64,000 bases of DNA. It comes from Ignavibacteria bacterium (lineage in GTDB: Bacteria > Bacteroidota > Ignavibacteria > Tepidaquicellales > Tepidaquicellaceae). The stretch is from positions 62,001-126,000 of the forward strand of contig JAQTLX010000003.1 of NCBI GenBank assembly GCA_028714695.1, read 5' to 3'. The notes below the pieces were generated by a model, which saw only the letters and a list, made by a program, of their open reading frames with translations, ran no database searches and had not been told where the DNA came from. Positions 39,179 through 59,532 of the stretch are shown one piece after another. Both the position numbers and the translations under genes were made by a program. Numbering within the stretch: position 1 is the stretch's first letter; each line of letters begins with the position of its first letter.

Positions 39179-41350
39179 TTGTTCAATTTTAAATTTCCGA
39201 ATTTCAGACAATATTCATATAACGATTGCGGACCCGCATGTATCGTAATCGTTGCCAAATTTTATAAAAAATATTACCCATTAGAATATATACGCGAACA
39301 AATTGGAGTAAATCGCGATGGTTCTACTTTATTTGCTTTAGCAAAATGCGCGGAATCAATAGGATTCAAAACCCTATCGCTTAAAACATCGTTTGAACAT
39401 CTTAAAAAACTGCCTTTACCATTTATAATATTCTGGAAACAAAGACATTTTTTAGTTATTTATAAGGTATCGGATAACTTCATATATGCGTCAGACCCAA
39501 GTTTCGGATTAATAAAATTTTCGGAAAAAGAATTTGAGGAAAATTGGAGTTATAGAACCGGCGAGGGCGAAGTATTGCTGTTAGAAACGACCCCTGATTT
39601 TTATAATATAATCCCTCCCCCAACAAAAGATAAAATTGGTTTTAGATTTTTGTTAAAATACTTTTCAAAATATAAGCAATTAGTAGCGCAATTATTTATC
39701 GGACTTATTGTAACAACCGTATTCTCGGTTATTTTTCCATTTTTGACCCAATCGCTTGTTGATATAGGAATAAACCAGAAAAATTTAAATTTCGTGTATT
39801 TGATTCTAATTGCACAGATTTTTCTTTTTGTGAGCCAAAGCGCCATCGGATTTATTCGCAGCTGGATTTTCATGCATATTGCTACTAAAGTTAACATTTC
39901 GCTTGTATCTGATTTTCTGTTTAAACTAATGCGCCTGCCCATAATGTTTGTAGACTCTAGAACTCTCGGCGATATATATCAGAGAATATCAGACTTAGGG
40001 AGGCTTCAGGGATTTATATCCTCAACCACACTAAATTTTATTTTTTCCTTTATATCTTTGATTCTATTTAGTTTCATGCTAATAACATACAGCACGAAAA
40101 TATTTGTTATTTTTATAATTGGAAGTGTACTTGGTGTTTTGTGGGTATTCTTATTTCTGAAAAAAAGAAAGGAGTTGGACTACAAAAGATTTTACGAGTC
40201 ATCAGCTTCTCAAAACAGCATGGTTCAGATACTTACCGGGATACGGGAAATAAAACTAAGCAGTGCTGAAGAGCAAAAGCGTTCGGAGTGGGAGAAAATA
40301 CAAACCAATATATTCAAAATAAGCATAAAAAGTTTATATTGGTCGCAGATGCAGCAATTCGGTTCATTGTTTCTAAATCAGTTCAAAAATATATTAATCA
40401 CTGTCATAGCCGCTACGCAGGTCATTAACGGAGATATTACACTCGGTATGATGATGGCAATATCTTATATAATCGGGCAGATTAGTGCTCCTATAGAACA
40501 GTTTATCGGATTAGTACAAACATTTCAGGATGCCAAAATCAGTTTAGCCAGAGTATCGGAGGTTTACAACTGTGAGGAAGAAGAAAAACCCGCCATTCAT
40601 TATATTCCACAAACAAATCTGAATGAAAGTATATATTTTAGAAACGTATCCTTTAAATATTTTAAAACTGATGAAAATTATTTACTAAGTCGGATAAATT
40701 TTGAGATACCAAAGAACAAGATAACTGCGATAGTTGGATCCAGCGGGAGCGGAAAGACTACGCTTTTAAAACTCATACTGAAATTATACAATGTGAATGA
40801 AGGCGGTATTTACATTGGAAACAATAATATTGACGGGATAAGTCCGAGCGAATGGAGAAAACAATGCGGAAGTGTTATGCAGGACGGTTATGTTTTCTCC
40901 GATACAATAGAAAATAATATAATATTAGGTGCAAAAAAAATTGATAAAGAAAGACTTGAATATTCAATACGGGCGGCGAACCTGAACGAATTTTTAGAAA
41001 CTCTACCGAAGGGTATGGACACATTGGTTGGGATGATGGGCGAAGGAGTAAGTCAGGGGCAAAAACAGAGAATCTTAATAGCGAGGGCAATATACAAAAA
41101 TCCAAATTACGTATTCTTTGATGAAGCAACGAGTGATTTGGATTCTCAGAACGAAAATCAAATTATGGAAAACTTAGATGGTTTTTTTAAAAATAAAACA
41201 GTATTACTAATAGCACACAGATTAAGCACAATAAAAAATGCTGATAATATCATTGTTCTGAATGACGGAATAATTGCGGAACAGGGTAATTACGACCAAC
41301 TGATTGCCCTGAACGGTGTATTTCCGAATATTTTTAAAAATCAAACATAA
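39179..41350 (+). CDS. C39-peptidase-containing ABC exporter (double-glycine leader processing)
   Basis: 723 residues. An N-terminal C39 cysteine peptidase shows Gln11, catalytic Cys17 (YNDCGPAC), His90 (QRHFLVIY) and Asp106 (ASDPSFG). Six membrane helices follow (about 155-440), then an ATPase with Walker A (GSSGSGKTTLL, about 520), signature (VSQGQKQRILIARA) and Walker B (YVFFDEATSDLD, about 645). Such exporters cut leader peptides behind GG/GA/GS and pump the product out. The start is TTG 39179, which gives the peptidase a normal N-terminus. It is the first gene of the plus-strand RiPP operon. All three precursors nearby carry a matching GG or GA at residues 32-33. Confidence 0.95.
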   Translation: MFNFKFPNFRQYSYNDCGPACIVIVAKFYKKYYPLEYIREQIGVNRDGSTLFALAKCAESIGFKTLSLKTSFEHLKKLPLPFIIFWKQRHFLVIYKVSDNFIYASDPSFGLIKFSEKEFEENWSYRTGEGEVLLLETTPDFYNIIPPPTKDKIGFRFLLKYFSKYKQLVAQLFIGLIVTTVFSVIFPFLTQSLVDIGINQKNLNFVYLILIAQIFLFVSQSAIGFIRSWIFMHIATKVNISLVSDFLFKLMRLPIMFVDSRTLGDIYQRISDLGRLQGFISSTTLNFIFSFISLILFSFMLITYSTKIFVIFIIGSVLGVLWVFLFLKKRKELDYKRFYESSASQNSMVQILTGIREIKLSSAEEQKRSEWEKIQTNIFKISIKSLYWSQMQQFGSLFLNQFKNILITVIAATQVINGDITLGMMMAISYIIGQISAPIEQFIGLVQTFQDAKISLARVSEVYNCEEEEKPAIHYIPQTNLNESIYFRNVSFKYFKTDENYLLSRINFEIPKNKITAIVGSSGSGKTTLLKLILKLYNVNEGGIYIGNNNIDGISPSEWRKQCGSVMQDGYVFSDTIENNIILGAKKIDKERLEYSIRAANLNEFLETLPKGMDTLVGMMGEGVSQGQKQRILIARAIYKNPNYVFFDEATSDLDSQNENQIMENLDGFFKNKTVLLIAHRLSTIKNADNIIVLNDGIIAEQGNYDQLIALNGVFPNIFKNQT

Positions 41351-41355
41351 TTTTT

Positions 41356-42363
41356 TTGAAAGAAGAAGAAAATAATAAAACCGCCGGGACTGAATTACAG
41401 GAACTGATTAATTATCATCCAAATTGGATTATTAGATGGGGAATATCCATTGTGGGTTTGGTGGTACTTCTTTCGTTATTTTTATCCGATTATATAAAAA
41501 CATACGAGATAGTGAAAACATACAAATGCAGGATTGAAAATAGAGTTCAGAGGATAAAATTGCCGGCACAAAACACAAAGGCTGAAATTCTGTTTAAGAA
41601 CGGTGATTACTTGGAAAAGGGAGCGTACCTTGTATCGCTTGATACTTCCGCAAACATTCAGGAAATATTAAATCTGAAAAAATTACTTGCAGTTACAGAG
41701 GTTTATTTACAAAATCCGGAATATATTAATTTGGATTTAGATGCCGTAAAATGTAATAATCCCGGATTCTTAAGGGAAAGTCTTGAAAATATGAAAACAA
41801 ACCTTGCAGAACTAACGACTACCATGAATAAGCCGGGTTCACGCGAAAAACCTTCAATTCAAAAGGAATTAGTCGGCATAAGTATCTCTTCGTACCATTC
41901 TCTTTCTGAGAAATTTTTACAATGGGAAACCAATAATATCATAAAATCTTCAATTAGCGGCTATGCAGATATCGCGGAGAAATCATTTCGGGGTAATGTA
42001 AGGGCGGATACAATGGAAATATTTGTTAACAGCGATAAGGGAGATCAGGAATTATCATCAATAATACTTGAAATAGATCCGAATTTAAAAGAAAAAATAT
42101 CCGTCGAGCAATTTTTAGATTTAAAATTAATAATTGGGGCTGATATGTATATTATAAACAGGTGCAGAATAGATTCCGTAGTAACATATAAAGAGAAAAA
42201 TTTAATGGTAGTAACAGCGACAATTCCTAAGCAAAGAAAGAATGACATTCCTCAGTATATTCTGGAACGCGGAATAATAGATTGTTCTGCCGAAATTGTT
42301 CTTAACGGTCAAAGTATGTTTAAAAAGATATTTTACAAATATAAAGAAGCAAACAGATTCTAA
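41356..42363 (+). CDS. HlyD-like membrane fusion (adaptor) protein
   Basis: A 335-residue protein with one N-terminal membrane helix (about residues 25-46, IIRWGISIVGLVVLLSLFLSDYI). Behind it is a lipoyl/HlyD-type strand pattern (CRIENRVQRIKLPAQNTKAEILFKNGDYLEKGAYLVSLD), an alpha-hairpin (120-190) and a beta-rich end. Sequence similarity to classical HlyD is low, but its position 5 bases after the C39 exporter is the standard one. It would link the exporter to the outer membrane. The start is TTG 41356. No TolC-like gene is in the cluster. Confidence 0.72.
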   Translation: MKEEENNKTAGTELQELINYHPNWIIRWGISIVGLVVLLSLFLSDYIKTYEIVKTYKCRIENRVQRIKLPAQNTKAEILFKNGDYLEKGAYLVSLDTSANIQEILNLKKLLAVTEVYLQNPEYINLDLDAVKCNNPGFLRESLENMKTNLAELTTTMNKPGSREKPSIQKELVGISISSYHSLSEKFLQWETNNIIKSSISGYADIAEKSFRGNVRADTMEIFVNSDKGDQELSSIILEIDPNLKEKISVEQFLDLKLIIGADMYIINRCRIDSVVTYKEKNLMVVTATIPKQRKNDIPQYILERGIIDCSAEIVLNGQSMFKKIFYKYKEANRF

Positions 42364-42378
42364 AATAACTATAATCTA

Positions 42379-45219
42379 ATGGAAATATTTCCTTTAACGC
42401 TGATTAGAATCGGCGGCGGGTCTTTTGATTGTATGTCTTCCCTGAAATTTCAACAGGACGATTATCTGGAAATAACATATGAGAAAGTTAAGGTTATAAA
42501 GAATGAAATAAGTGAATTGATTTATCAAATCATACCTGAATTGAAATCCAGCAAAGAGCAAAATATTTTGTTGAATTTACGCAGAGATATATTTAACGAT
42601 AAGAAACTTCAAAGATCAGGCATTGATAAAATCGACAAGATTGTTGATAAAGCAGCAGCGGAGAAAATCGGCGAATATTTTTCAACGATAGAAAATATCG
42701 ACAATTATTTAAACTCAGTTAAAGATAATTATGATAATGCGTTAATCGAGTTGTGTAAGAATTTAAGGGATTTAACAGTAACTGAATGCATTAGAAACGG
42801 CTTTGTTTTTTCAAGCCACTCTCTATTAAAGAATTTCGAGAGTTATTTAAAACACGAAGGCGAATACACGAAAGATATAAAAAAGACCGAGGTAAGTTTG
42901 ATTAAATATCTTTCCCGAACATACACGAAAACATCTCCCTTTAGTTCATTTAACAGTTTAGCGATTGGCAAATTATCACAGAACAGGAGAGAATCTTTTC
43001 TTTACTATCCTGAAAACGAAGAAATAAAAGCGTCAAGCATTATAAGAGTAAACAACAATTTGTTCTTTTATTTAAGAAACTGTATCTTAAATATAAGAGA
43101 ATTATTTACACATCTTTATCTGATTGCTAATCCGACAATCACCAAACAGGGATCTCAATACAGATACCTAATAAATTACACTAACCTTGAATCATTTCAG
43201 AAGATAGAATTAAATCCGATTTTAGATTACATTTATGAACACCTAAAAGAAAAAAGGAAATTGAAGTTTTGCGATTTGATAAGTCTTATATTTGATGAAG
43301 AAGTAATTGATGCTGACGAAGATGAGCTTGAGAATTACGTTTATAAATTAATCGAGGTCGGTTTTTTCGAATTTGATATTGGTATCTCGGGATTGAATGT
43401 TGACTGGATAACTGAATTAGTGAATTTACTGAAAATCATTCCTGTTAATTCGGAATCAAAAAATATTATTGTTAGGACATTAGAATATCTTAATTCGAAA
43501 GCACGAGAAATGGTGCATTCCGGTTCTCAAGAGCGTTATGAATCGTCTATAGAGGCATTTGGCAGGGTAACCGAGATGAAAGCATGTTTAGACCTTCTTG
43601 TAAAACCAAAAGAAGCTGTACCCGAAACCGTTAATAATGTTGAAAGTCCGGAGGCGGGAAAAGAAGCAGCGGGTAGTAATGATAAAGATCAGAACGAAGA
43701 ACAAAATAAGCAGGTTATAAAAAATGTTCAGTATTACAATCTTGATATAAAACCCGAATCTTTATTTTACGAAGACACAATTCTGAACGACCAATTATTG
43801 ATTAATTCGGATGAAAGTATAGAAATAATAAATAATGCAAATAAATTAATGAGTTATTTCAAATTATTCGAAGGACATAAGGACGAAATGGAAAAAGTAA
43901 CTCATTATTTTAAAAAGAAATATAATATAAATGAATTTATAAATCTTCTTACGTTCTATGAAGAATATATTGGTTATAAGAAAGAAGAGAGAAAAAGGAA
44001 AGATTCAGGCAGGAATGACGAAAACAATAACGAGGAAAAGGGGCATGAGAACAAAGAAAATGTAATTAGAGAAGAAATTATTGTTAAGACAAAAGACAGA
44101 AAAGAACTTCAAAATAAATGGTTAAACAACATTTTCCAAATTATAAAGAAAGAAAATTATACTATAAATGACGAAATAAAATTAAATGAGAAAATGTTTA
44201 TGGATTGCAATAAACAATCCGAAATACAGGAAGATTTTGAATTAAACTCATCGCTCGGATTCTTTCTTCAATTTTACGAAGATAAAACCGAAGAGGGTAA
44301 AAAATGTATTAAATCTGTTATTAATTCTTCGTTTTCCGGATACGGGAAAATGGTAAGCAGATTTCTCAATTTGTTTCCCGATGAATTTACAAAAGAGATA
44401 CGGAAATGGAACGAAAAATATTCGGGTGATTATATTCTTGCGGAAAATATTGATTCAAGCATAATGAACTACAATCTCCACCCGGCTCTAATGCCTTATG
44501 AAATAAGCATTCCCGGAGGAAATTATGTGCTTGAACCTGAAAGAAGAATATCGGTATCCCAATTGGTAATTAGTTATAACAAAAAAGAAGACAATCTTCA
44601 GTTAACGGATACATTAAGCAATAAAAGAGTCTTTACATTCGATCTGGGATTTCAGGGTTACGGAGGACGTTCGGAATTATTTAAATTTCTTGAAACATTT
44701 ACGCTATCAAAAACATTGTTTTTGCATCCCCTTTTGAGGAAAATCTTCGGGTTGTTTAATTCTGTCGAGATGACCTACAATCATATATCGGATAAAGTGA
44801 GCATTCGTCCCAGAATATCTTATAATGATAAATTAATAATAAGCAGAAGAGAGTGGATAATTCCTACAAAATTGCTACCATTTAAACATTATAACGAAAA
44901 AGAATCCGATTATTTTACGAGAATCCAAAAGTGGAGAGTTGAATTTGGACTTCCCGAGGAAATGTTTTTTTTCATAAAACCAATGTTCTTTGAGAATAAA
45001 AAAGAAATTAAAGCAAAAAAGAATTTTACAAGAGATGATTATAAACCGCAGTATATTTGTTTTGGAAATCCTTTTTTAATCAGGCTATTTGAAAAACAAC
45101 TTGGAAAAGTGATTGAATCGATGAAATTTGTCGAAATGTTACCGGCGTCAAATAATTTGCTGAAAATAAACAATAAAAGATACGTAACCGAATTCGTCAA
45201 TCAAACTTATAATTTTTAG
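42379..45219 (+). CDS. Lantibiotic dehydratase LanB, N-terminal (glutamylation) part
   Basis: 946 residues of the Lant_dehydr_N type, which uses glutamyl-tRNA to glutamylate Ser/Thr of a peptide before elimination. Seen: the N-terminal FPLTLIRIGGGSFD block, the R180-TYTKTSPFSSFNSLAIGKL core motif, and downstream HPALMPYEISIPGG, FLHPLLRKIFGLFNS and RIQKWRVEFGLPEEMFFFIKP, where the family is conserved. Two low-complexity charged insertions (about residues 410-452 and 533-577) are unusual and make the protein long for this half alone. The elimination domain is encoded separately by the next gene, 2 bases on, so LanB is split. Confidence 0.88.
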   Translation: MEIFPLTLIRIGGGSFDCMSSLKFQQDDYLEITYEKVKVIKNEISELIYQIIPELKSSKEQNILLNLRRDIFNDKKLQRSGIDKIDKIVDKAAAEKIGEYFSTIENIDNYLNSVKDNYDNALIELCKNLRDLTVTECIRNGFVFSSHSLLKNFESYLKHEGEYTKDIKKTEVSLIKYLSRTYTKTSPFSSFNSLAIGKLSQNRRESFLYYPENEEIKASSIIRVNNNLFFYLRNCILNIRELFTHLYLIANPTITKQGSQYRYLINYTNLESFQKIELNPILDYIYEHLKEKRKLKFCDLISLIFDEEVIDADEDELENYVYKLIEVGFFEFDIGISGLNVDWITELVNLLKIIPVNSESKNIIVRTLEYLNSKAREMVHSGSQERYESSIEAFGRVTEMKACLDLLVKPKEAVPETVNNVESPEAGKEAAGSNDKDQNEEQNKQVIKNVQYYNLDIKPESLFYEDTILNDQLLINSDESIEIINNANKLMSYFKLFEGHKDEMEKVTHYFKKKYNINEFINLLTFYEEYIGYKKEERKRKDSGRNDENNNEEKGHENKENVIREEIIVKTKDRKELQNKWLNNIFQIIKKENYTINDEIKLNEKMFMDCNKQSEIQEDFELNSSLGFFLQFYEDKTEEGKKCIKSVINSSFSGYGKMVSRFLNLFPDEFTKEIRKWNEKYSGDYILAENIDSSIMNYNLHPALMPYEISIPGGNYVLEPERRISVSQLVISYNKKEDNLQLTDTLSNKRVFTFDLGFQGYGGRSELFKFLETFTLSKTLFLHPLLRKIFGLFNSVEMTYNHISDKVSIRPRISYNDKLIISRREWIIPTKLLPFKHYNEKESDYFTRIQKWRVEFGLPEEMFFFIKPMFFENKKEIKAKKNFTRDDYKPQYICFGNPFLIRLFEKQLGKVIESMKFVEMLPASNNLLKINNKRYVTEFVNQTYNF

Positions 45220-45221
45220 TT

Positions 45222-46226
45222 ATGCAAGCCGGCACAAATGGGAAAAAGTGGTTATCGGCATATTTATTTTATTCCGATTCGCGCGATATTTTTTTAAAAG
45301 ACGCTGTTTATCCGTTTATAAAGAACTTGAAATCAATAAGCGGATTTAAAAGATACTTTTTTATAAGATATCCTGAACGCGGTCCGCATATTAGATTAAG
45401 AATCTTAACAGAATCGAGAAAAAGTTACAATACCATAAAATTACTTTTAGCAGATCATTTTAATAATTATTTTAAACAGCGTCCTTCTAAAAATATCGAA
45501 CCGGACTGGGTGAAAAATCTTCCGGACAACCTGAAGTGGTTTAAAAACAACTCTGTACGATTTATTGACTACGAACCCGAACTAGAAAGATATGCGGGTA
45601 TAACAGGAATGGAGATTTCCGAAGAGCAGTTTCAGTTATCTTCCGAAACAGTTTTGAAAATACTCGAATTATCCGATACGTGGAATTATGAAAAAGCGCT
45701 TGGCAGGGCTATGCAACTTAATCTTTCTTTTTGTCTGGCTGCTGGTATGAGTGTTGATCAAATTTCAAAATTTTTTTCTCATTACTGCGATTCCTGGATT
45801 GTTGCCAGCATAAGGGAATATTATTCACCCGAAAAAGATTATGATTTCAAACAGTACAGGGAAAAAATGATTCATGTATTTTCAGAAATATTCGAAAAAA
45901 GGAAAAACTATTTTATAGATTTGAACAGGGATCTTATTGATGCAATAACAAATAATGCAAAATTCGAAGAAGATTGGTTTAATAATTGGATCAGCGGGAA
46001 TAAAAATATAACAACGAAATTAATTTACGCACAGGCTGAGAATAAATTATCAATTGACGAATATTATAAGAAAGTGGCAGAATTTAAAAATGACCGCATG
46101 TATGAATTGTTCTATTTATACCAAAGCTATATTCACATGACCCATAACAGGCTTGGCTTGGAAAATAAGGATGAGCCATTTATCAGTTTTTTAATAAAAG
46201 AAAGTTTAAATAATTTTAAAATATGA
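45222..46226 (+). CDS. Thiopeptide-type / SpaB C-terminal domain protein (LanB elimination part)
   Basis: The 334-residue protein starts with the SpaB_C signature: KKWLSAYLFYSDSRDIFLKDAVYPFIKNL, then FKRYFFIRYPERGPHIRLRI, with R49, R53, H56, R58 and R60 as likely glutamate-elimination residues. It ends with SYIHMTHNRLGLENKDEPFISFLI, the normal family end. In classical LanB this domain removes glutamate to give Dha/Dhb; in thiopeptide systems it is a separate chain as here. It overlaps the LanC gene by 4 bases (ATGA). Confidence 0.88.
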   Translation: MQAGTNGKKWLSAYLFYSDSRDIFLKDAVYPFIKNLKSISGFKRYFFIRYPERGPHIRLRILTESRKSYNTIKLLLADHFNNYFKQRPSKNIEPDWVKNLPDNLKWFKNNSVRFIDYEPELERYAGITGMEISEEQFQLSSETVLKILELSDTWNYEKALGRAMQLNLSFCLAAGMSVDQISKFFSHYCDSWIVASIREYYSPEKDYDFKQYREKMIHVFSEIFEKRKNYFIDLNRDLIDAITNNAKFEEDWFNNWISGNKNITTKLIYAQAENKLSIDEYYKKVAEFKNDRMYELFYLYQSYIHMTHNRLGLENKDEPFISFLIKESLNNFKI

Positions 46227-48238
46227 ATCTAATCAGCCAGGAACAAAAAAACATTCTGATGAACGAGACAATCAGAATAGCAGATGAAATATATGACAAA
46301 AGAATAGAAGATAATAACGGAATATACTGGAAAACAATGTCGCTTAACAGCCAGACAAATGCTATAGAATGGACTGTTTCGGAGAATATATATTCAGGTG
46401 TTTCGGGAATTATTCTTTTCTATTTGTATTTATACAAAATTAACCAGAATGAAAAATATTTGAAAATATGCAAACAATCTATGAATTGGGTCGTGAACTA
46501 TTGCAGGGAAAATAAAACCGTAAACTATTCGTTTTTCACCGGGAGAATGAGTGTTCCATACACTTTGCTAAAGATGAATAATCTATATGGTAAGGATTAC
46601 ATTGAAACGGCTTTGGAAATTGGAGACCAATGCGATATATTTATTACCTCAAATAATCCGCCCCGCGAATTCCTAAACGGCGCCGCAGGGACATTAATTT
46701 CTTTGCTGCATTTATACGACGGGACTAAGGATTCGGGTGTCCTTGAAAAAATTGATTTATACGTAAAGTATATTATAGATAATGCAAGATACAATAAAAG
46801 CGGAATACACTGGGACAGAAGTATAAATGTTATAAAAAGTCTTTGCGGTATTACACACGGAGCTGCAGGAATCGGGCTGGCATTTCTTGAATTAGGGCAT
46901 TATTTTGATAACACAGCATATTATTATTTGGCGGAACAAGCATTTGCATATGAGTCAAACTATTACGGTGAAAAACAAAAAAACTGGATGGATCTCAGAA
47001 AAGGAATTTATAGTACCGAAGATGAAAATAAACACAAAAGTGCATTCCTGGAAAAACGTTATTCGTTTTTTTCTGAGCCTATCAGCATGTATGCCTGGTG
47101 TCACGGTGCGCCGGGAATAGGATTCACGAGATTAAGGGCGTACGAGTTACTTAAAAAGGAAATTTATAAAATCGAAATGAATAAATGCGAGGATGCTGTA
47201 TTAAGCCAAATTGAAGCGCCGATTTTCGAAGGAACCTCATTAACGTTATGTCATGGTCTTGGAGGAAATCTTGACCTTATTAACGAAATACCAAATATTC
47301 TGTGGTCAAAGGATACAAAATCCAGATACGAGGTAATAATCAAGCGTCTTTGTAGATTTATACAGGATAAGAAGTATTACACTTCCGGTCTCGCTTCTTA
47401 TTCCGGTAAAATGGAGGATTTGAGTTTATTCATGGGTAATGCCGGAATAGGGTACTACTTTCTAAGGTTACTTGATGAGAAAAAAGAAAGTTCAATATTA
47501 TCGCCGGTTATAAAGGAAAATTTAGCAAACAACGAAAGCACCTCAAAATTCTTTTTTTCAAAATTAAACTTGAGCGAACTCAGGAGAATCGAAATATGCA
47601 AAGTTTTTAAAAATACGGTTAAACTGATTTCAGTATTTGAAATTCAGAAGTTCAATGAGTATTTAAATTTGGATTCTTCAAATTTCAGAAATAACGAGAT
47701 TGAAGATTTCAGATTGTTTTTTAAAAATCTTGAATTAAAAGACAAGAAAAAAGCAGAAATGTTGAATGACGTGTATGAATACGAAACAAATATATATACA
47801 CTGGACAGCAATATCGAAAGTTATTCATTAGCGAATGCCAGAAAACTGTTCGGGCAAGGAATCATATTAGAATTGATTAATGACGAGGATAAATTAAAGA
47901 AAACAGCTCTGTCGATAAATCATGATGCAATGGCATTGACCTCAAAGTGGAATTGGGAAAAAATTGAAGAATGGAATCTCAACAACTTAATGCATTTACA
48001 TAAGGAGAACACACGCAAGGTTATTATTGCTTCGCACACAGGTATCGAAATAACCGAAATATCGGATTTTTGTTATCATACAATATCTTTGTTCAACGAG
48101 GAAAGAACAACCGAAGAAGCATTGGTTATTCTGTCCGAATTATTTGATAATGATAACGAAGAGCAGAAAAAAATTATTCGGGATAATGGTTTATTGCAAA
48201 TTAAAAATTTATTATCAAAAGGTTTTCTAATACCCTAA
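46223..48238 (+). CDS. LanC-like lanthionine cyclase with a long extra C-terminal region
   Basis: 671 residues. The first ~430 are LanC: H212 in GITHGAAGIG, zinc ligands C293 (WCHGAPG) and C343-H344 (LCHGLGGN), and FMGNAGIGYYFLRLLDE closing the barrel. All the catalytic residues of LanC cyclases are kept, so addition of Cys thiols onto Dha/Dhb is expected. About 240 further residues follow, which normal LanC lacks. They end with a stretch (about 590-671: ITEISDFCYHTISLFNEER, TTEEALVILSELF, LLQIKNLLSKGFLIP) resembling a PqqD-like RiPP recognition element. The rest of the extension I do not recognise. Confidence 0.88.
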   Translation: MNLISQEQKNILMNETIRIADEIYDKRIEDNNGIYWKTMSLNSQTNAIEWTVSENIYSGVSGIILFYLYLYKINQNEKYLKICKQSMNWVVNYCRENKTVNYSFFTGRMSVPYTLLKMNNLYGKDYIETALEIGDQCDIFITSNNPPREFLNGAAGTLISLLHLYDGTKDSGVLEKIDLYVKYIIDNARYNKSGIHWDRSINVIKSLCGITHGAAGIGLAFLELGHYFDNTAYYYLAEQAFAYESNYYGEKQKNWMDLRKGIYSTEDENKHKSAFLEKRYSFFSEPISMYAWCHGAPGIGFTRLRAYELLKKEIYKIEMNKCEDAVLSQIEAPIFEGTSLTLCHGLGGNLDLINEIPNILWSKDTKSRYEVIIKRLCRFIQDKKYYTSGLASYSGKMEDLSLFMGNAGIGYYFLRLLDEKKESSILSPVIKENLANNESTSKFFFSKLNLSELRRIEICKVFKNTVKLISVFEIQKFNEYLNLDSSNFRNNEIEDFRLFFKNLELKDKKKAEMLNDVYEYETNIYTLDSNIESYSLANARKLFGQGIILELINDEDKLKKTALSINHDAMALTSKWNWEKIEEWNLNNLMHLHKENTRKVIIASHTGIEITEISDFCYHTISLFNEERTTEEALVILSELFDNDNEEQKKIIRDNGLLQIKNLLSKGFLIP

Positions 48239-48368: not shown

Positions 48369-48398
48369 AAAAGGGGCTATAATATAGCCCCTTTTAAA
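48369..48398. terminator. Bidirectional terminator between RiPP enzymes and precursors
   Basis: AAAAGGGGCTAT / ATAGCCCCTTTT form a 12-bp stem around a short AAT loop. A-runs precede and T-runs follow, so it can stop both the plus-strand LanC transcript and the minus-strand precursor transcript. Confidence 0.92.
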
Positions 48399-48403
48399 AT
48401 ATT

Positions 48404-49168
48404 TTACCAGCCTCCTAATGGCGAATCCGTGGTGGGACAGTTACAGCTTCCTTGTTCGGAACACAATGTTTTGTTATGAACGAGAATATTATGAACAAAA
48501 AAAGTATGAATATTGTCCACCTCAAGATTGTAAACCTTTGTTTTCTCTTTTATTTTTTCTATTGAAACTACATTTACCGGTTGCAAATTTTTATCAGTAA
48601 GTTGGTCTCCGACCTTGATATCTTTAACGCGAATCCATTTGTCGTTTATGTAAAACGGATGATTTTCGGTTACTTTTATTTCTTTGTTAATGATATAATA
48701 GTAGGGCTGCTCGGTAATGATAACTCTTATTACATTTGATAATTCTGTTTTTTTGGTTTTTTCGTTATATCCCAAAACCTTTTCGCCCTCAGAAATTTCC
48801 TGAATTGCTTTTTGTACAATGTCCGAAGTGTTTACGAGCGTGTCTTCGAGGAAACATGAGCCGCAGTTGCAATGAGAATAGCAAGAAAAGCATGTTCCGG
48901 CGCATGTTCCAGCGCAAGTATTCGCACATGTGCCCGCGCACGTTCCGGCGCAAGTATTAGCACATGAGTTTGCGCATGTGTTATCGCAGGTTCCACCGCA
49001 GGAGCACATCCAAGTCTGTTGGCACGTAGCATATTCGGCGGTATGGCACACCACTTCGACAGATTCACCAGCTCCTTTGACACCTTTTGAAGTGTCATCG
49101 TTTAAGGAAGTTACAAAACTTTCGACTTTGATGTCTTCAAGTTTAAGTTTTCTTTTTTTGTTTTTCAT
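48404..49168 (-). CDS. Lanthipeptide-like precursor A with Hint autoprocessing domain
   Basis: 254 residues in four parts. (1) Leader 1-33, KRKLKLEDIKVESFVTSL type, ending K-G-A, a double-glycine-like site. (2) Cys-rich core 34-104 with 16 Cys; from C57 to C93 every fourth residue is Cys in a C-A-[GN]-T pattern. (3) A Hint domain from C105 (CFLEDTLV) through TENHPFY (T167, H170) to LVHN (H231, N232), keeping all residues needed for the N-S acyl shift and Asn cyclisation. (4) A 22-residue tail ending CNCPTTDSPLGGW. The residue after Asn is Lys, so cleavage rather than splicing is expected. Third and last in the minus-strand precursor operon; no clear Shine-Dalgarno. Confidence 0.9.
   Translation of the reverse strand: MKNKKRKLKLEDIKVESFVTSLNDDTSKGVKGAGESVEVVCHTAEYATCQQTWMCSCGGTCDNTCANSCANTCAGTCAGTCANTCAGTCAGTCFSCYSHCNCGSCFLEDTLVNTSDIVQKAIQEISEGEKVLGYNEKTKKTELSNVIRVIITEQPYYYIINKEIKVTENHPFYINDKWIRVKDIKVGDQLTDKNLQPVNVVSIEKIKEKTKVYNLEVDNIHTFFVHNILVHNKTLCSEQGSCNCPTTDSPLGGW
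48890..49000 (-). repeat. 12-bp coding repeats (Cys every fourth residue)
   Basis: The core of precursor A codes for ten Cys at perfect four-residue spacing (C57 to C93), mostly C-A-G-T, C-A-N-T or C-A-N-S. At DNA level this is a diverged 12-bp tandem repeat, likely grown by slippage or unequal crossover. Confidence 0.9.
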
Positions 49169-50021
49169 AATTTTAATTTATATTAGGTTAGAAAAACTAT
49201 GAAACTTTCTATTATTTTTACCATCCACCTAAAGGAGAATCTGTTGTTGGACAATTGCAGGATCCAGCTTGTGAACAGATGGTTTTATTGTGAACGAGAA
49301 TACTGTGAACAAAGAATGTGTGAATATTATCCACTTCAAGGTTATATACTTTTGTATTTTGATTTATCATTTCAATGGAAAAGACCTCAACGGGATTCAA
49401 TTCTTTATCCATAAGGAAATCACCTTTCTTTATATCTTTGACTCTTATCCATTTACCATTCACATAAAATGGATGATTCTCTGTTACTTTAATGTTTTTG
49501 TTAATAATATAATATCCCGGTTGTTCAGTAACAAAGACTTGAATTACTTTTGACATTTCAATCTTTCGAGTTACTTCGTTAAAGCCTAATACTTTGTCGC
49601 CTTCGGTAAGCTCCTGAATAGCTTTTTGAACTAGTTCAGAAGTGTTTACAAGAGTATCCTCAAGGAAACAAGAACAATTGCACGAAGCGCAGGAACATAC
49701 TGAAGCACAGGAACCTCCACACGTTGGGCACGTGTTACAGCCGCTTGGACAACTGTCACAAGTATTTACGCAGGTATCACCACAGGTATTTCCTGTCGGA
49801 CAACCGATACAAGTCGGATCTGTACAAACCGTGGAATGACAAGCAATATCGCACCATGTTCGGCAAGCTGTAAGTTGCTGGCTTTCCCCAGCTCCTTTGA
49901 CATCTTTTGAAGTGTCATCGTTTAAGGAAGTTACAAAACTTTCGACTTTGATGTCTTCAAGTTTAAGTTTTCTTTTTTTGTTTTTCATAATTTTAATTTA
50001 TATTAGGTTAGAAAAACTATG
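49096..50021. repeat. Direct repeat: leader and upstream spacer of precursors A and B
   Basis: The block 49096-49201 (start of precursor A and the spacer before it) recurs at 49916-50021 with an offset of 820 bases and no difference that I can see. After one change (a/g at 49202/50022) identity continues into the 3' end of the next gene. It marks a recent tandem duplication of a precursor unit. Confidence 0.85.
49218..49988 (-). CDS. Lanthipeptide-like precursor B with Hint autoprocessing domain
   Basis: 256 residues, same four-part plan as precursor A. Leader 1-33 differs from A at one place only (D29 for G) and ends K-G-A. The core 34-106 has 18 Cys, with irregular spacing and short motifs such as NTC, GDTC and PTC. 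The Hint domain spans C107 (CFLEDTLV) to N234 (LVHN), with TENHPFY intact. The tail is KTICSQAG...CNCPTTDSPLGGW. Only the core is free to vary; leader, Hint and tail are held. Middle gene of three; 49 bases separate it from each neighbour, with nearly identical spacer sequence. Confidence 0.9.
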   Translation of the reverse strand: MKNKKRKLKLEDIKVESFVTSLNDDTSKDVKGAGESQQLTACRTWCDIACHSTVCTDPTCIGCPTGNTCGDTCVNTCDSCPSGCNTCPTCGGSCASVCSCASCNCSCFLEDTLVNTSELVQKAIQELTEGDKVLGFNEVTRKIEMSKVIQVFVTEQPGYYIINKNIKVTENHPFYVNGKWIRVKDIKKGDFLMDKELNPVEVFSIEMINQNTKVYNLEVDNIHTFFVHSILVHNKTICSQAGSCNCPTTDSPLGGW

Positions 50022-50037
50022 GAACTTTCTATTATTT

Positions 50038-50763
50038 TTACCATCCACCTAAAGGAGAATCTGTTGTTGGACAATTGCAGGATCCAGCTTGTGAACAGAC
50101 GGTTTTATTGTGAACGAGAATACTGTGAACAAAGAATGTGTGAATATTGTCCACCTCAAGATTATATACTTTTGTATTTTGATTTATCATTTCAATAGAA
50201 AAGACCTCAACTGGATTCAACTCTTTATCCATAAGGAAATCACCTTTCTTGATATCTTTGACTTTTATCCATTTCCCATTTACATAAAAAGGATGGTTCT
50301 CTGTAACTTTAATTTCATCGTTGATAATATAGTAATAGGGCTGCTCGGATATAAAAACGTTAGCTACTTTAGAAAGTAATTTAGTTCCCGTAATTTCGTT
50401 ATAACTTAAGACTTTATCGCCCTCCCTAAGTTCCTGAATAGCCTTCAACACTATTTCGGAAGTGTTAACTAAGGTGTCTTCAAGAAAACAAGAACAATTA
50501 CAGTAAGTATTACAAGCAGACGGGCAAATAGAACAAGAACCGCAAAAAGTAAGGCATGATTCCGCTGAGCATTCATTTGTATTACCGCAGTTAACCTCGC
50601 AAGTATGTTGACCACACGCGGTGTCTACAACAGAATAGCAAGTTTCGCAGGTTTTCTCTGTTGCGCCACCATTTGCGTTAAGAGTTTGTTCCTTGCTGAT
50701 AGATGTTACAAAACTCTCCACCTTGATGTCTTCGAGTTTTAGTTTTCTTTTACTTTCTTTCAT
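50038..50763 (-). CDS. Lanthipeptide-like precursor C with Hint autoprocessing domain
   Basis: 241 residues and the first gene of the precursor operon. The leader (KRKLKLEDIKVESFVTSI) shares its first half with A and B but differs after residue 21 and ends in a true double glycine (N-G-G, G32-G33). The core 34-91 has 13 Cys and several acidic residues (TCETC, VNCGNTNEC, GSCSIC). Hint runs from C92 to N219 with TENHP and LVHN intact; its second half is nearly identical to that of B, suggesting gene conversion. The tail is KTVCSQAG...CNCPTTDSPLGGW. A good ribosome site (AGAGGTG) lies before the start, unlike for A and B. Confidence 0.9.
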   Translation of the reverse strand: MKESKRKLKLEDIKVESFVTSISKEQTLNANGGATEKTCETCYSVVDTACGQHTCEVNCGNTNECSAESCLTFCGSCSICPSACNTYCNCSCFLEDTLVNTSEIVLKAIQELREGDKVLSYNEITGTKLLSKVANVFISEQPYYYIINDEIKVTENHPFYVNGKWIKVKDIKKGDFLMDKELNPVEVFSIEMINQNTKVYNLEVDNIHTFFVHSILVHNKTVCSQAGSCNCPTTDSPLGGW

Positions 50764-54637: not shown

Positions 54638-57600
54638 TTATCCAAGAGGAATTTCACGCGCAGCATCAGTAACCGCGCCTATTTTAACCGCATAACTGTT
54701 TTTATTCTCTATATCCGTATCGGTTATTATGTGTACGTCGAGAAGGTTTCCGGTTTTATATCCTGTCTTCAGATAATTTATTTCCGCGAGCGACTGTCCC
54801 CAGCCTACAAGCCAACTTTCAAGCAATTCACGTTGTTTATCATTGCCCGTAAAATGTATCAGTATATCTATATCGCTTGCAGGACCGGCAGTTGCATTTT
54901 TAGTGCTTCCGAAAATATAAAATGCCGCGACACCCGAATCGTCAGGATTTATTTCAGAGGCAATCTTTTCTGCCATTCTTAATCTCCATCTCCAAAAATC
55001 TTCGGACACCTGTTCATCGTATGTCAACGTCTGTATTTCTTCTTTCTTTTCCGCCGGCTGCAAAAGGTAAGCAAGCGCTTCATCAAGATCCGCATTCATG
55101 AGCAATTTCAGAATTCTTCCTTCGCAGGATTTCCGGACGTCGATAACGTGCAATACACTTTTCAAATCTTTATATTCGGGAAGAATTTCTGTCAGAATAT
55201 TATCCGATTTCTTAAAGAAGATTTCATTAAAAACAGTGTCTTTGTCGTCGGGATACAAAGGTAGATATCTGATGGAAGATTCCACAAGGTCCTGAAAAAA
55301 GTGAGTTCCGAATGAAAGGTCAGGAAGATAATTTCCTTTTTTTCTTGCAACTTCAATAAGTACCGATGTATTATTTATATCCGAATAAGTAACATTAACC
55401 CCGAGTTTAATATCTCCTCTGCTGCCCCATCTTCCCGGTCCTATAAGAATGAATTGTCTCTTTGGAAGGATTTTATTCAGTTTGCCGACTGCCTTGCCTA
55501 CTTCCTTTAACCGCGGAAGGTCGGAAATGTTATTATATTCCTCCGCGTCAACGTAAACTACGTGTGTAATTTCGGGCACCTTGCCGTTTGAAACGAACTT
55601 ATTCGCCGAAAAAATAATTCTTTCCGCGGGAATATCTTTCGGAATCGGCGCCGGCATTGATTCCGGCGAGTAACTTTGAGGTCTGCATTGAAGCAAAAAG
55701 AAATTCTTGCCGTCTGACGCGAACTCTATATCGACAGGAGTCTGTAATTTTTCCTTTAATACGTCAAGAATTGATTTCATCATCGGAATGAAGTTAGACC
55801 TGTTTGTAAGTTTATCGAAAGTGACAACAAGGTCATCATGATGAGCCGTTATATCGAACTGGCTTATATCCCTGACGAAATCACGTCCGCACAAAGAAAC
55901 AAGATCAATCAGGTTCGGATAACTTGTTCCGTATTTTTCAATAATTGTTTTTAACTCGACTGTTTCGAAAGTATTTGTTTCGAGGTTAATGACATCGATT
56001 TTTTTGGGCGAATACCTGATTGTTTCGTCAACGGTAACGTTCACTTTAAGCCCCGGTTTTCCGGGAGTTGCGAGTATCGGGTAGTCGTCGCTAAGTCTGT
56101 CTACCGCTCTCGTTCCGAGACCCGGCACTAAACGTATAAGACCGTCTTCCCGTTTGATTCTTGGCGACCATCTGAACTCGTTATTGCTGAATGCAACGCC
56201 GGCATAAGAAGGGAAGAAATATTTTCCCACTCTCGAACCTACAACTTCCTGAATCATTATACCCATTTCTTCATGGTAATCGAGGAGTCCTCTTTCTTTC
56301 CTGTATTCGATAGGGTCTGCATTAAAGAGTGATGCATACACTTCCGCAATTGCGTCCATAAGAGCATTCAGCCTTGTGCTTTTGCTTCCCTGATTTGCAA
56401 CAAACAAACTTTTGTATTTCCCCGAAAAAGCCGAACCGTAGCGGTCTTCGAGGAGGCTTGAACTTCTTACGATTAAAGGAACGTTTCCGAAATCATCGAG
56501 CGCTACTGAAAGATATTTTACAATTTCATGAGGGAAAGTTGAATTTTTAAATATCTGAACAATGTAAGGATATTCCTGTCTTATCTGGTCTATTTCTTTG
56601 TATTTCTGTTCAATGATTTCCTCAAGATTGTTGTAATGAAGAAATTCTATTACCATGTCGGAAGTAATATACCAGGTCTTCGGTGTTTTTATGTTCTTTA
56701 AGATGCATGACTTCGTTTCGGAATTCTTTAATATTTTTTGCGCAATAAATAATCCGACGCTTTTTCCTCCGATTCTGCCGTGACTCTTCGGAGGATATAT
56801 CATTTTCTGAATTAACTCGTGAAAATCTTTAATCGTCACATAATCTTTTGCAATTCCTATGAATTCCAACTGGTCAGATAAAAATCTTCTTATTAACGAA
56901 GCGTTAATTCCTTTCTGTACAACGGGGGATAAGTCTTTATCTTTGGGAGTAGTTTCAACAAACCGCCGTATTGTATCGGCGATTTCCGAGAGAGTGCTCC
57001 CCTGATCTTCAATTGTCCGAACCAGAAAACTTGACCTTTCTTCCTGCATCCATTTCTGAATCTTCGAAAATATTTCGTCATTGGTCAGATTGGCTGCAGC
57101 GATATCATACACTTCATCGTGAATTTCCTTAATCTCAAGTTTTTCCTGAGGCTTATTGTCGATGTCCTCCGTATCAAATTCTCTTACGTTTTGAATGCTG
57201 TTTGTGTAAAGCAGGTTCTCTGCGGCGCTTATACCTCTCCAGCAAAGATAATTTACCATTTTACGCGCAATAACCTTGTAAAGATTTGAGTCTGTTTCCT
57301 TTATAAAATTTATCGCAGTAAGCCATTCGGGCTTGCTTTCCTGTGCGTTATCGTTTTTTTCTTCGCTGAATATCTTTCTTAATTTATAATGGAAAACATA
57401 CGCCCCTAATCTATCGGCTATTGTTTCCAGAAGTTTTCTTTCTTCTTTCAGGAAAGGTCCTTCATCGCAAACAGGTCGTTCTTCTGAATAAAAAACGCAT
57501 ATACATCCTTCTTTATTTCCCTGAATAGTAATAAGTGTTTCCTGCATCCATTCCGTTTCGGAAAAATTTTGAGAAAACAGCGTATTGTTATGACATATTA

Positions 57601-57778
57601 TTTTTACGGAACATATTTCAGGATACTGATAACCCGGCGGAATTACATTCGCAATTCTCTGAAGGTTTTCGTTGAGGTCAATAGTATAGTCCGTAAGAAG
57701 TTCTTCTATTTTATACAGGCAGTTCAACTCCTTCGCTCTTTCCTGAAGCGATGAAAGTATTTCGTTCTTATCCGTCAT
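54638..57778 (-). CDS. PEP-synthase-like ATP-binding protein with GAF-like N-terminus and C-terminal nucleotidyltransferase
   Basis: 1046 residues. The first ~145 look like a GAF-type sensor domain. About 330-700 match the PEP synthase/PPDK N-terminal ATP-grasp region (RIGGKSVGLFIAQKIL, LIVRSSSLLEDRYGSAFSGKYKS, GIMIQEVVGSRVGKYFFPSYAGVAFS, DIEFASDGKNFFLLQCRPQS). Then comes an ILIGPGRWGS module shared with the upstream gene. Near 948-975 is a nucleotidyltransferase motif (AFYIFGSTKNATAGPASDIDILIHF), with G-S and D-x-D as in pol-beta-type enzymes. The phosphohistidine and pyruvate-binding domains of PEP synthase are absent. The start overlaps the upstream gene's stop by 4 bases. Function unknown. 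Confidence 0.8.
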   Translation of the reverse strand: MTDKNEILSSLQERAKELNCLYKIEELLTDYTIDLNENLQRIANVIPPGYQYPEICSVKIICHNNTLFSQNFSETEWMQETLITIQGNKEGCICVFYSEERPVCDEGPFLKEERKLLETIADRLGAYVFHYKLRKIFSEEKNDNAQESKPEWLTAINFIKETDSNLYKVIARKMVNYLCWRGISAAENLLYTNSIQNVREFDTEDIDNKPQEKLEIKEIHDEVYDIAAANLTNDEIFSKIQKWMQEERSSFLVRTIEDQGSTLSEIADTIRRFVETTPKDKDLSPVVQKGINASLIRRFLSDQLEFIGIAKDYVTIKDFHELIQKMIYPPKSHGRIGGKSVGLFIAQKILKNSETKSCILKNIKTPKTWYITSDMVIEFLHYNNLEEIIEQKYKEIDQIRQEYPYIVQIFKNSTFPHEIVKYLSVALDDFGNVPLIVRSSSLLEDRYGSAFSGKYKSLFVANQGSKSTRLNALMDAIAEVYASLFNADPIEYRKERGLLDYHEEMGIMIQEVVGSRVGKYFFPSYAGVAFSNNEFRWSPRIKREDGLIRLVPGLGTRAVDRLSDDYPILATPGKPGLKVNVTVDETIRYSPKKIDVINLETNTFETVELKTIIEKYGTSYPNLIDLVSLCGRDFVRDISQFDITAHHDDLVVTFDKLTNRSNFIPMMKSILDVLKEKLQTPVDIEFASDGKNFFLLQCRPQSYSPESMPAPIPKDIPAERIIFSANKFVSNGKVPEITHVVYVDAEEYNNISDLPRLKEVGKAVGKLNKILPKRQFILIGPGRWGSRGDIKLGVNVTYSDINNTSVLIEVARKKGNYLPDLSFGTHFFQDLVESSIRYLPLYPDDKDTVFNEIFFKKSDNILTEILPEYKDLKSVLHVIDVRKSCEGRILKLLMNADLDEALAYLLQPAEKKEEIQTLTYDEQVSEDFWRWRLRMAEKIASEINPDDSGVAAFYIFGSTKNATAGPASDIDILIHFTGNDKQRELLESWLVGWGQSLAEINYLKTGYKTGNLLDVHIITDTDIENKNSYAVKIGAVTDAAREIPLG

Positions 57779-59532
57779 TTTAAGATTATTCCCTTTCCGG
57801 ATTTACCGTCAACCTTTATGCAAAGCGGATTATCAAGAACTACGTGCTTTATGAAATGCGTTTCATTCATTGTTTTTTGTTTATTCAGCCAATTCCAATC
57901 CACCGCTGTTTTATTATTCAAGGGTACCGAAAAATACATAACCTGAAAACTGGTTATGTTATGAAAAAAGTGAGAGCCCTGACTCAGTTCAACATTCATT
58001 CCTTCCGTCATTGACTCAACGATAACTTTTGCGTTTGAAATCTGACCCCAGTTAACGGGAGTGCCGAGCCAGGGGTCCGAACTACCCCATCTGCCGAAGC
58101 CGATTAAAAGATATTTCCTGTTTTCTTCTGTAAGAATCCGGTTAATAAGTTCAAGTTCGCCTGCTATCGCATTTGAATGAACAGCATCAAAATTTTCAGG
58201 CTTGACAAAAATAACGTCTTTAATCGTATTTAAAAATCCGTTACCAAGAACCCTGTCGGATGAAACAAGGACTGACGATCCTTCTGATTCATTTTCTTCG
58301 ATATTTATATTCTCGTCGGAAACAACCATCGGGCGGACCTGCAAAAATCCGAATTTAGCGGGAATTCCTTTTTCAATATCGAGAGTTACGGCAAACTCTA
58401 TTTCAACGGCTGATTCATAAGCGTTTTCGCATACCTTAAGTAATTTACTTATAACCGCATTTAGCGGAACCGTGTTCAACTCCAGAACAGGTGAAAAATC
58501 AATTACCTTGGGACCCGTATACCATGTGCCGATTTTAAATTTATCCGAAGATATATCGTATGTTGATGCAATGTGATTTAGAGACTGATCTTTTTCTGCC
58601 GTCAGCAAATCGCATTTTACAAGAAACTCCGTTTCTTTTGCCGGATCGTATGATGGAAGTTTGCCCATATTAACAGCCCAGAATTCTTTTTGCGTATTTT
58701 TCATAAATTGTCCCGGCGAACCGAATGGCGGTTTAACGGAAGGGTAGGCTGGGGAATATGTCCATACTGTTTCCCCGTCGACAACCGTTTTACCAAGTCC
58801 GAGCGCCAGATCGACGACTCCGTTTTCGGGTTTCGCAGTTCCCTGCGGATAAAAATTATATGAGCGCGCAACTCCTGATATTGTCGGATAAAAAATGCTT
58901 CCGTATTTTTGTCCGACAACCTCCTGAATTATCACAGCCATTTTTTCGTCCTTAATGTCATTCTTTGTGGCGCGTATATAATCTTTCGCTTCTTTAAAAT
59001 ATGTGGAAGCATAAACGAATTTCAGTGCATCGAGAAGTTTATGAAACCTTGTGTCCGCGTCGAACTGATTATTCGGAATCATTTTTGTGCCGTATATTCC
59101 GGCGAACGGTTCATAGAGCGAGTCTTCAAGCAGACTGGACGATCTTACAGCAAGCGGCGTATGTACTTTCTCTATCAATCCGCGAAGATCGCCGAGTAAT
59201 TCTGTCGGAAGGCTTGCATCAAGAAATTTATGCGCAATCATGTCATCTGAATCGCCTGAAAATGCAATACCGTAAAGGTCATTCATTCGCATGAACGAAT
59301 CAAAAACATCGGTTGTAATTAAAACGAAACGCGGTATGCTTACGGATATTCCGGGAAATTCATTTTCAAGAAAACTATTTTCAAGTATTCTTTTAAATGA
59401 CGCAAGCCCTGCGGCTTTTCCTCCGGGCGAGCCATTGCCTATATAAGTGAATTCCTGTCCTGCATCGAAAAATCCTCTGTTAAAAGGCTTCAGTTCGTTG
59501 AGTATATCCGTATTCTGTTTTTTTTGAACCAT
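57775..59532 (-). CDS. PEP-synthase-like ATP-binding domain protein
   Basis: 585 residues. The ATP-grasp part of PEP synthase is present: GSPGGKAAGLASFKRIL (near residue 32), LAVRSSSLLEDSLYEPFAGIYGT, MAVIIQEVVGQKYGSIFYPTISGVARS, GVVDLALGLGKTVVDGE and FGFLQVRPMV. The C-terminal LLIGFGRWGSSDPWLGTPVNWG module is shared with the downstream gene. It lacks phosphohistidine and PEP-binding domains, so it cannot be a normal PEP synthase. Coupled by ATGA overlap to the 1046-residue protein, with which it may form a complex. A hairpin (59543-59576) lies just before its start. Confidence 0.8.
   Translation of the reverse strand: MVQKKQNTDILNELKPFNRGFFDAGQEFTYIGNGSPGGKAAGLASFKRILENSFLENEFPGISVSIPRFVLITTDVFDSFMRMNDLYGIAFSGDSDDMIAHKFLDASLPTELLGDLRGLIEKVHTPLAVRSSSLLEDSLYEPFAGIYGTKMIPNNQFDADTRFHKLLDALKFVYASTYFKEAKDYIRATKNDIKDEKMAVIIQEVVGQKYGSIFYPTISGVARSYNFYPQGTAKPENGVVDLALGLGKTVVDGETVWTYSPAYPSVKPPFGSPGQFMKNTQKEFWAVNMGKLPSYDPAKETEFLVKCDLLTAEKDQSLNHIASTYDISSDKFKIGTWYTGPKVIDFSPVLELNTVPLNAVISKLLKVCENAYESAVEIEFAVTLDIEKGIPAKFGFLQVRPMVVSDENINIEENESEGSSVLVSSDRVLGNGFLNTIKDVIFVKPENFDAVHSNAIAGELELINRILTEENRKYLLIGFGRWGSSDPWLGTPVNWGQISNAKVIVESMTEGMNVELSQGSHFFHNITSFQVMYFSVPLNNKTAVDWNWLNKQKTMNETHFIKHVVLDNPLCIKVDGKSGKGIILK

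Follow-up and report, generated by a model that had tools for sequence, protein, structure and literature searches.

We analysed a 64,000-nucleotide window of an Ignavibacteria contig and found three tandem ORFs on the minus strand (window positions 48404-50763) that share one plan: a leader, a core, a Hint domain and a tail. Judging from the leader, the neighboring split LanB and LanC, and the Cys/Ser/Thr core, the encoded precursors are class I lanthipeptides of the pinensin family, and the fused Hint domain is, by its residues and its modelled fold, an A-type BIL domain. We consider it probable that the core of these pinensin-family precursors is released through a thioester formed by the BIL domain and that the leader is cut by a C39 exporter. 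The combination of a class I lanthipeptide with a BIL domain was not found in the searched literature, and whether it stands for a maturation principle of its own would depend on the chemistry of the domain. If the Hint domain is active, these would be, as far as we found, the first natural lanthipeptide precursors that process or activate their own C-terminus, and protein splicing and RiPP biosynthesis would be joined in one molecule. Such activity would also place a genetically encoded thioester on a peptide that is modified naturally, which would be of use in ligation or cyclisation, and would give BIL domains a role outside toxins. Hint-free sibling clusters in related genomes represent a natural control.

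The four-part plan had been proposed in a preliminary description made from the DNA letters; it proved to be real, with leader and Hint profiles above their cut-offs in all three genes, and the coordinates given there were correct. The parts of the genes are as follows.

50038..50763, minus strand: precursor gene 3, whole ORF, 241 aa, first in the tandem
50665..50763, minus strand: gene 3 leader, residues 1-33, NGG end (NF038180, E 2.6e-10), GG at 32-33 by sequence
50491..50664, minus strand: gene 3 core, residues 34-91, with 13 Cys, 15 Ser/Thr and 1 Lys
50107..50490, minus strand: gene 3 Hint/BIL domain, Cys92 to Asn219 (PF07591, E 9.8e-21; AlphaFold model)
50041..50106, minus strand: gene 3 tail, KTVCSQAGSCNCPTTDSPLGGW
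49218..49988, minus strand: precursor gene 2, whole ORF, 256 aa
49890..49988, minus strand: gene 2 leader, residues 1-33, KGA end (NF038180, E 8.2e-11)
49671..49889, minus strand: gene 2 core, residues 34-106, with 18 Cys, 20 Ser/Thr and 0 Lys
49287..49670, minus strand: gene 2 Hint/BIL domain, Cys107 to Asn234 (PF07591, E 1.1e-19)
49221..49286, minus strand: gene 2 tail
48404..49168, minus strand: precursor gene 1, whole ORF, 254 aa
49070..49168, minus strand: gene 1 leader, residues 1-33, KGA end (NF038180, E 1e-10)
48857..49069, minus strand: gene 1 core, residues 34-104, T-C-x-x repeats, with 16 Cys, 17 Ser/Thr and 0 Lys
48473..48856, minus strand: gene 1 Hint/BIL domain, Cys105 to Asn232 (PF07591, E 7.7e-17)
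48407..48472, minus strand: gene 1 tail

The pinensin leader model NF038180 (leader_pinensin) matched all three precursors with 40-42 bits (cut-off, 24). Residue 33 of the leader marks a C39-type cut site, which is Gly-Gly in gene 3 and Gly-Ala in genes 1 and 2. The cores are 58-73 residues long and contain at most one Lys each, and the numbers of Cys and Ser/Thr are nearly equal within each core (16:17 in gene 1, 18:20 in gene 2 and 13:15 in gene 3). All three cores end with CNC(G)S, and SCNC occurs within the tails. The tail consists of 22 residues with the near-invariant pattern KTxCSxxGSCNCPTTDSPLGGW, three of which are Cys and six Ser/Thr.

A search of the segments following the core against Hint and intein profiles, which the preliminary description had suggested as a check, gave strong matches in all three precursors: 62-75 bits to PT-HINT (PF07591; E 1e-16 to 1e-20; cut-off, 27.7) and 38-45 bits to Intein_splicing (PF14890; curated cut-off, 35.8). 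The domain is 128 residues long in each gene, from Cys1, its sole Cys, through the terminal His-Asn. As had been claimed, the catalytic marks are intact: Cys1, T-E-N-H (block B TxxH) and L-V-H-N-K are invariant across the three precursors. The +1 residue is Lys in every copy, and a Cys is present at +4. The top sequence match in the PDB was the BIL domain of C. thermocellum (2lwy, E 4e-12). We modelled the structure with AlphaFold2 from the three precursors aligned with 39 Hint homologues; the Hint domain had pLDDT values of 91-98 (typically about 96), and the leader, core and tail were of low confidence. In a fold comparison by VIA-align, BIL2 of Tetrahymena BUBL1 (6y75) was the best match (Z 20.7, 138 residues, 1.7 A, 27% identity), followed by 2lwy (Z 20.6, 130 residues, 1.2 A, 32% identity), and BIL structures ranked above inteins, for which Z reached 18.9, and above hedgehog, with Z 17. 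The top two families found by Foldseek were the same, namely Tetrahymena and C. thermocellum BIL. The Hint fold, the Cys1/TxxH/His-Asn set and a +1 residue other than Cys, Ser or Thr all point to the A type of BIL domain.

Three other assignments of the domain did not fit. A canonical class 1 intein would have Cys, Ser or Thr rather than Lys at +1; a polymorphic toxin with a pretoxin HINT would have a C-terminal toxin domain, but just 22 residues come after the domain and no family match was obtained there; and a Hedgehog (Hog) autoprocessing domain would be followed by a sterol-recognition region, but there are only these 22 residues, and the His-Asn is kept. Lys also occupies +1 in nine of 76 Hint homologues (loci L062-L139). 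The five residues that follow the terminal His-Asn include a Cys in 82% of these 76 homologues (at +2 in 49%), far more often than expected from amino-acid frequencies. The displaced Cys after the Asn is a family trait and might serve as a redox partner of Cys1 or as an alternative acceptor.

Comparison of the gene copies revealed how unevenly their parts have changed. Between the Hint domain of gene 1 and those of genes 2 and 3, synonymous differences amount to 57-63 of about 76 sites, which is saturation, and non-synonymous differences to 43-51 of 308 sites, with 75-77% protein identity. For the tail, the corresponding values are 11.5-12 of 15 synonymous and 7-7.5 of 51 non-synonymous sites, with 86% identity. 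Since 75-86% protein identity is retained despite the saturation of synonymous sites, the Hint domain and the tail are under strong purifying selection. The preliminary description would have been refuted by broken Cys1 or His-Asn residues as the rule; in the three genes these residues are kept under that selection. The core of gene 1 is only 31-48% identical to those of the other two genes; the core is thus not conserved, whereas the Hint domain and the tail are selected. The leader-coding DNA of genes 1 and 2 is 98% identical and the upstream DNA is near-identical; the cores of these two genes differ, and the nucleotide identity of their Hint regions is merely 72%. Near-identical leader and upstream DNA beside differing cores points to recent copying or gene conversion of the leader, or to replacement of the core.

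The genes for modification and export lie next to the precursors, on the plus strand and convergent with them.

39179..41350, plus strand: C39 peptidase-ABC exporter (PF03412, E 1.5e-32; PF00664; PF00005)
41356..42363, plus strand: HlyD-like adaptor by position and membrane anchor, with no Pfam match
42379..45219, plus strand: LanB glutamylation half (PF04738, E 1.1e-29)
45222..46226, plus strand: LanB elimination half (PF14028, E 1.7e-39)
46223..48238, plus strand: LanC cyclase, extended at its C-terminus by about 250 aa (PF05147, E 3.4e-55)
48369..48395, no strand: inverted repeat of 12 pairs with T-runs on both sides, between the convergent lanC and gene 1

These matches bear out the earlier reading of the neighborhood as a split LanB, a LanC and a C39 exporter, and the GA/GG at residues 32-33 supports the suggestion that this exporter would remove the leader. 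LanC carries the zinc motifs WCHG and LCHG and is best matched by LanM cyclase domains (TIGR03897). From its match to the consensus, the inverted repeat is a probable shared terminator of lanC and gene 1. The cluster is bracketed by TonB-receptor-like outer-membrane proteins (OMP_b-brl_3, PF14905; 36445-38880 and 51278-53716), for which a role in import, export or self-protection is possible. Farther away are two overlapping genes (54638-57778 and 57775-59532) that, by translation only, resemble the N-terminal part of PEP/pyruvate dikinase, one of them with a nucleotidyltransferase-like C-terminal stretch.

Two genomes of the same order (G036 and G035) have sibling clusters with the same gene order of exporter, LanB-N, LanB-C and LanC. 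The identities to G036 and G035 are 46 and 41% for the exporter, 33 and 29% for LanB-N, 32 and 29% for LanB-C, and 32 and 32% for LanC; the LanC extension of about 250 aa, which has no Pfam match, is common to both. At the position of the Hint-bearing genes, convergent to lanC, these clusters have one or two precursors, 64-70 aa in length, which end at the core and lack a Hint domain. A Hint-free precursor of G035 has Gly-Gly at residues 32-33, as in gene 3. About 40 further leader-core precursors were found in 12 genomes of the class, and their ORFs of at most 176 aa are too short for a leader, a core and a Hint domain. A T-C repeat core like that of gene 1 is present in several Hint-free relatives, e.g., TCANTCAHTCADTC in G432 and NTCANTCANTCGGTC in G660. 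Because the sibling clusters are Hint-free at the same place, the Hint domain was probably gained secondarily; most simply, an ordinary lanthipeptide precursor of this lineage acquired a pretoxin/BIL-type Hint domain before the divergence of the three copies and has retained it since. Among other Hint-free loci, one contig (contig 44 of G578, L193) bears some 14 pinensin-leader precursors in an array, and their Cys-rich cores differ widely. In two related clusters (L160 and L161 in G432 and G084), the place of the C39 exporter is taken by an ABC exporter lacking C39 together with a subtilisin-like protease, and no clear GG site is present in the leaders.

From the architecture, fold, residues, selection and context, we infer autoprocessing, its order and the fate of the thioester as follows. 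LanB and LanC, guided by the leader, would dehydrate and cyclise the core. The Hint domain would shift the peptide bond before Cys1 onto the Cys thiol to form a thioester, and cyclisation of its terminal Asn would cut off the tail. The core would then leave the Hint domain, its C-terminus passing through the activated thioester, and the C39 exporter would cut the leader after residue 33 (GA/GG) and export the product. As the Hint-free relatives illustrate, a plain stop codon already yields a free C-terminus, so a Hint domain that merely hydrolyses the thioester would be redundant. Ligation (to the tail, the core's own amine or thiol, or a partner) or timing is therefore more likely than simple hydrolysis, and the purpose of the domain would more likely be timing, i.e., release after modification or folding, or ligation chemistry. 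Simple release also leaves the strong conservation of the tail unaccounted for. A tentative proposal, to which we give slightly less than even weight, is a separate mode of RiPP maturation in which the precursor's own Hint domain would convert the C-terminus of the modified core to a thioester for ligation with the tail, the core itself or a partner; lanthipeptides of up to 13-18 rings with an unusual C-terminus would result.

Should the tail be the acceptor, the domain would act as a mini-intein or type A BIL that splices the core to the 22-residue tail, and the product would be the core plus a constant Cys-rich segment. The preliminary description had taken the Lys that follows the final Asn as evidence against splicing, but this argument fails, since A-type BILs can splice without a +1 nucleophile (PMC4031507), and Lys at +1 speaks against splicing no more here than in any A-type BIL. 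Type A BILs lack this nucleophile and mostly cleave, and when they splice, the freed C-terminal amine attacks the Cys1 thioester (PMC4031507; PMC7664689). The strong purifying selection on a tail rich in Cys, Ser and Thr and the resemblance of its SCNC to the core ends would fit such a product. However, cleavage products predominate in characterised BILs, and no counterpart of the tail occurs in Hint-free relatives. The tail was also tried as an ordinary piece of core, given its likeness to CSGVSCTCPT of a relative, and this was rejected: against the real cores of relatives its best score was 38, compared with a mean of 39 for shuffled cores (p 0.64), so only composition is shared. Splicing is, in our estimate, unlikely. 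Capture of the thioester by the N-terminal amine of the core, by a core Cys or Ser or by another molecule, giving a macrocycle or a decorated lanthipeptide, would explain why a Hint domain is kept where a stop codon suffices, and cholesterol transfer by hedgehog and the AgrB/AIP thiolactone are precedents. We nevertheless regard it as quite unlikely, as neither a partner enzyme nor an acceptor was seen in the cluster and no region like that for sterol recognition follows the Hint domain.

The tail itself might be what the Hint domain releases, as a second, constant lanthipeptide or a signal, in the way that a toxin HINT directly precedes its C-terminal effector (PMC3482391). Its 86% identity despite saturated synonymous sites would agree with this, but the 22 aa had no toxin match in the searches made and the leader and variable core would be left without a clear role, which makes this reading improbable. 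It is likewise quite unlikely that the Hint domain is a non-cutting folded carrier, serving solubility, timing or shielding during export while a protease processes the precursor. A folded C-terminal domain could indeed shield a Cys-rich peptide; however, Cys1, TxxH and HN are all intact at synonymous saturation, and the C39 domain belongs to the only protease gene recognised in the cluster. Frame fusion, mis-assembly or a decaying intein would make the arrangement an artefact. The assembly consists of 37 contigs, and mis-assembly is conceivable in principle, but the same joints recur in three diverged, consistent copies on one 297-kb contig, with open frames and purifying selection, and we ruled this explanation out as having a negligible chance of being correct. 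Release of the core through a thioester, with the leader cut by C39, is the reading that we retain.

Compared with known systems, the precursors have in common with the pinensins and the Bacteroidota class I family with LxLxKx5L leaders the NF038180 leader, the split LanB and the C39 GG cut. According to a large lanthipeptide survey, LanC of the pinensin group is nearest to LanM cyclase domains, and LxLxKx5L leaders, GG sites and C39 proteases are found there (PMC7268733). The described pinensin precursors stop after the core, whereas about 150 residues of Hint domain and tail are added here. With the A-type BIL of C. thermocellum (2lwy), the domain shares Cys1, TxxH, the HN end and the lack of a +1 nucleophile. 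Known BILs reside in bacterial proteins that are not conserved, within their variable regions (PMC7765530), whereas the domain here is part of a RiPP precursor. The best fold match, BIL2 of Tetrahymena BUBL1 (6y75, 6tmm), belongs to a eukaryotic polyprotein that releases a ubiquitin-like module, in place of which the present precursors have a lanthipeptide. BILs of Tetrahymena border on ubiquitin-like modules, whose C-termini they presumably activate. The pretoxin HINT (PT-HINT) gave the best Pfam match, and the homologues fetched from genomes are mostly of this kind; in those large secreted proteins it is followed by a C-terminal toxin, whereas the domain here follows a short modified peptide with 22 residues beyond. 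Fused domains of borosins and burpitides methylate or crosslink side chains or backbone, whereas the fused domain here would cut or activate the C-terminus. These RiPPs (cf. PMC8429565, PMC11250218) resemble the present precursors in having a catalytic domain built into the precursor.

The three genes are the only leader-Hint genes in their own genome, and the arrangement is known from this one genome. A genome search for the leader plus Hint, also suggested in the preliminary description, gave no second fusion in 59 relatives, 44 genomes of the order, 391 of the class and 395 of the phylum, and none was found in 10 genomes of a family rich in pinensin-leader precursors or in plasmid and phage records. 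The claim that no RiPP class of this plan had been described agrees with our search of open-access papers: nothing pairs "lanthipeptide" with "Hint domain", titles, abstracts and passages on inteins and RiPPs contain no natural intein-like RiPP precursor, and inteins go unmentioned in a 2023 review of RiPP proteases. When a species-level genome collection was scanned with one 9-residue pattern, none of the 78 Hint loci obtained had a lanthipeptide leader upstream; as a single short pattern was used, this is a sample and no proof of uniqueness. The sequences upstream of those 78 loci resemble polymorphic-toxin or other proteins. In viral contigs, a narrow Hint alignment gave no match and a broader one gave 50 Hint loci. 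At two loci (L067 and L073), the Hint domain lies in long proteins of Peregrinibacteria and Microgenomates MAGs, with a VHN-QKG end and hundreds of residues beyond.
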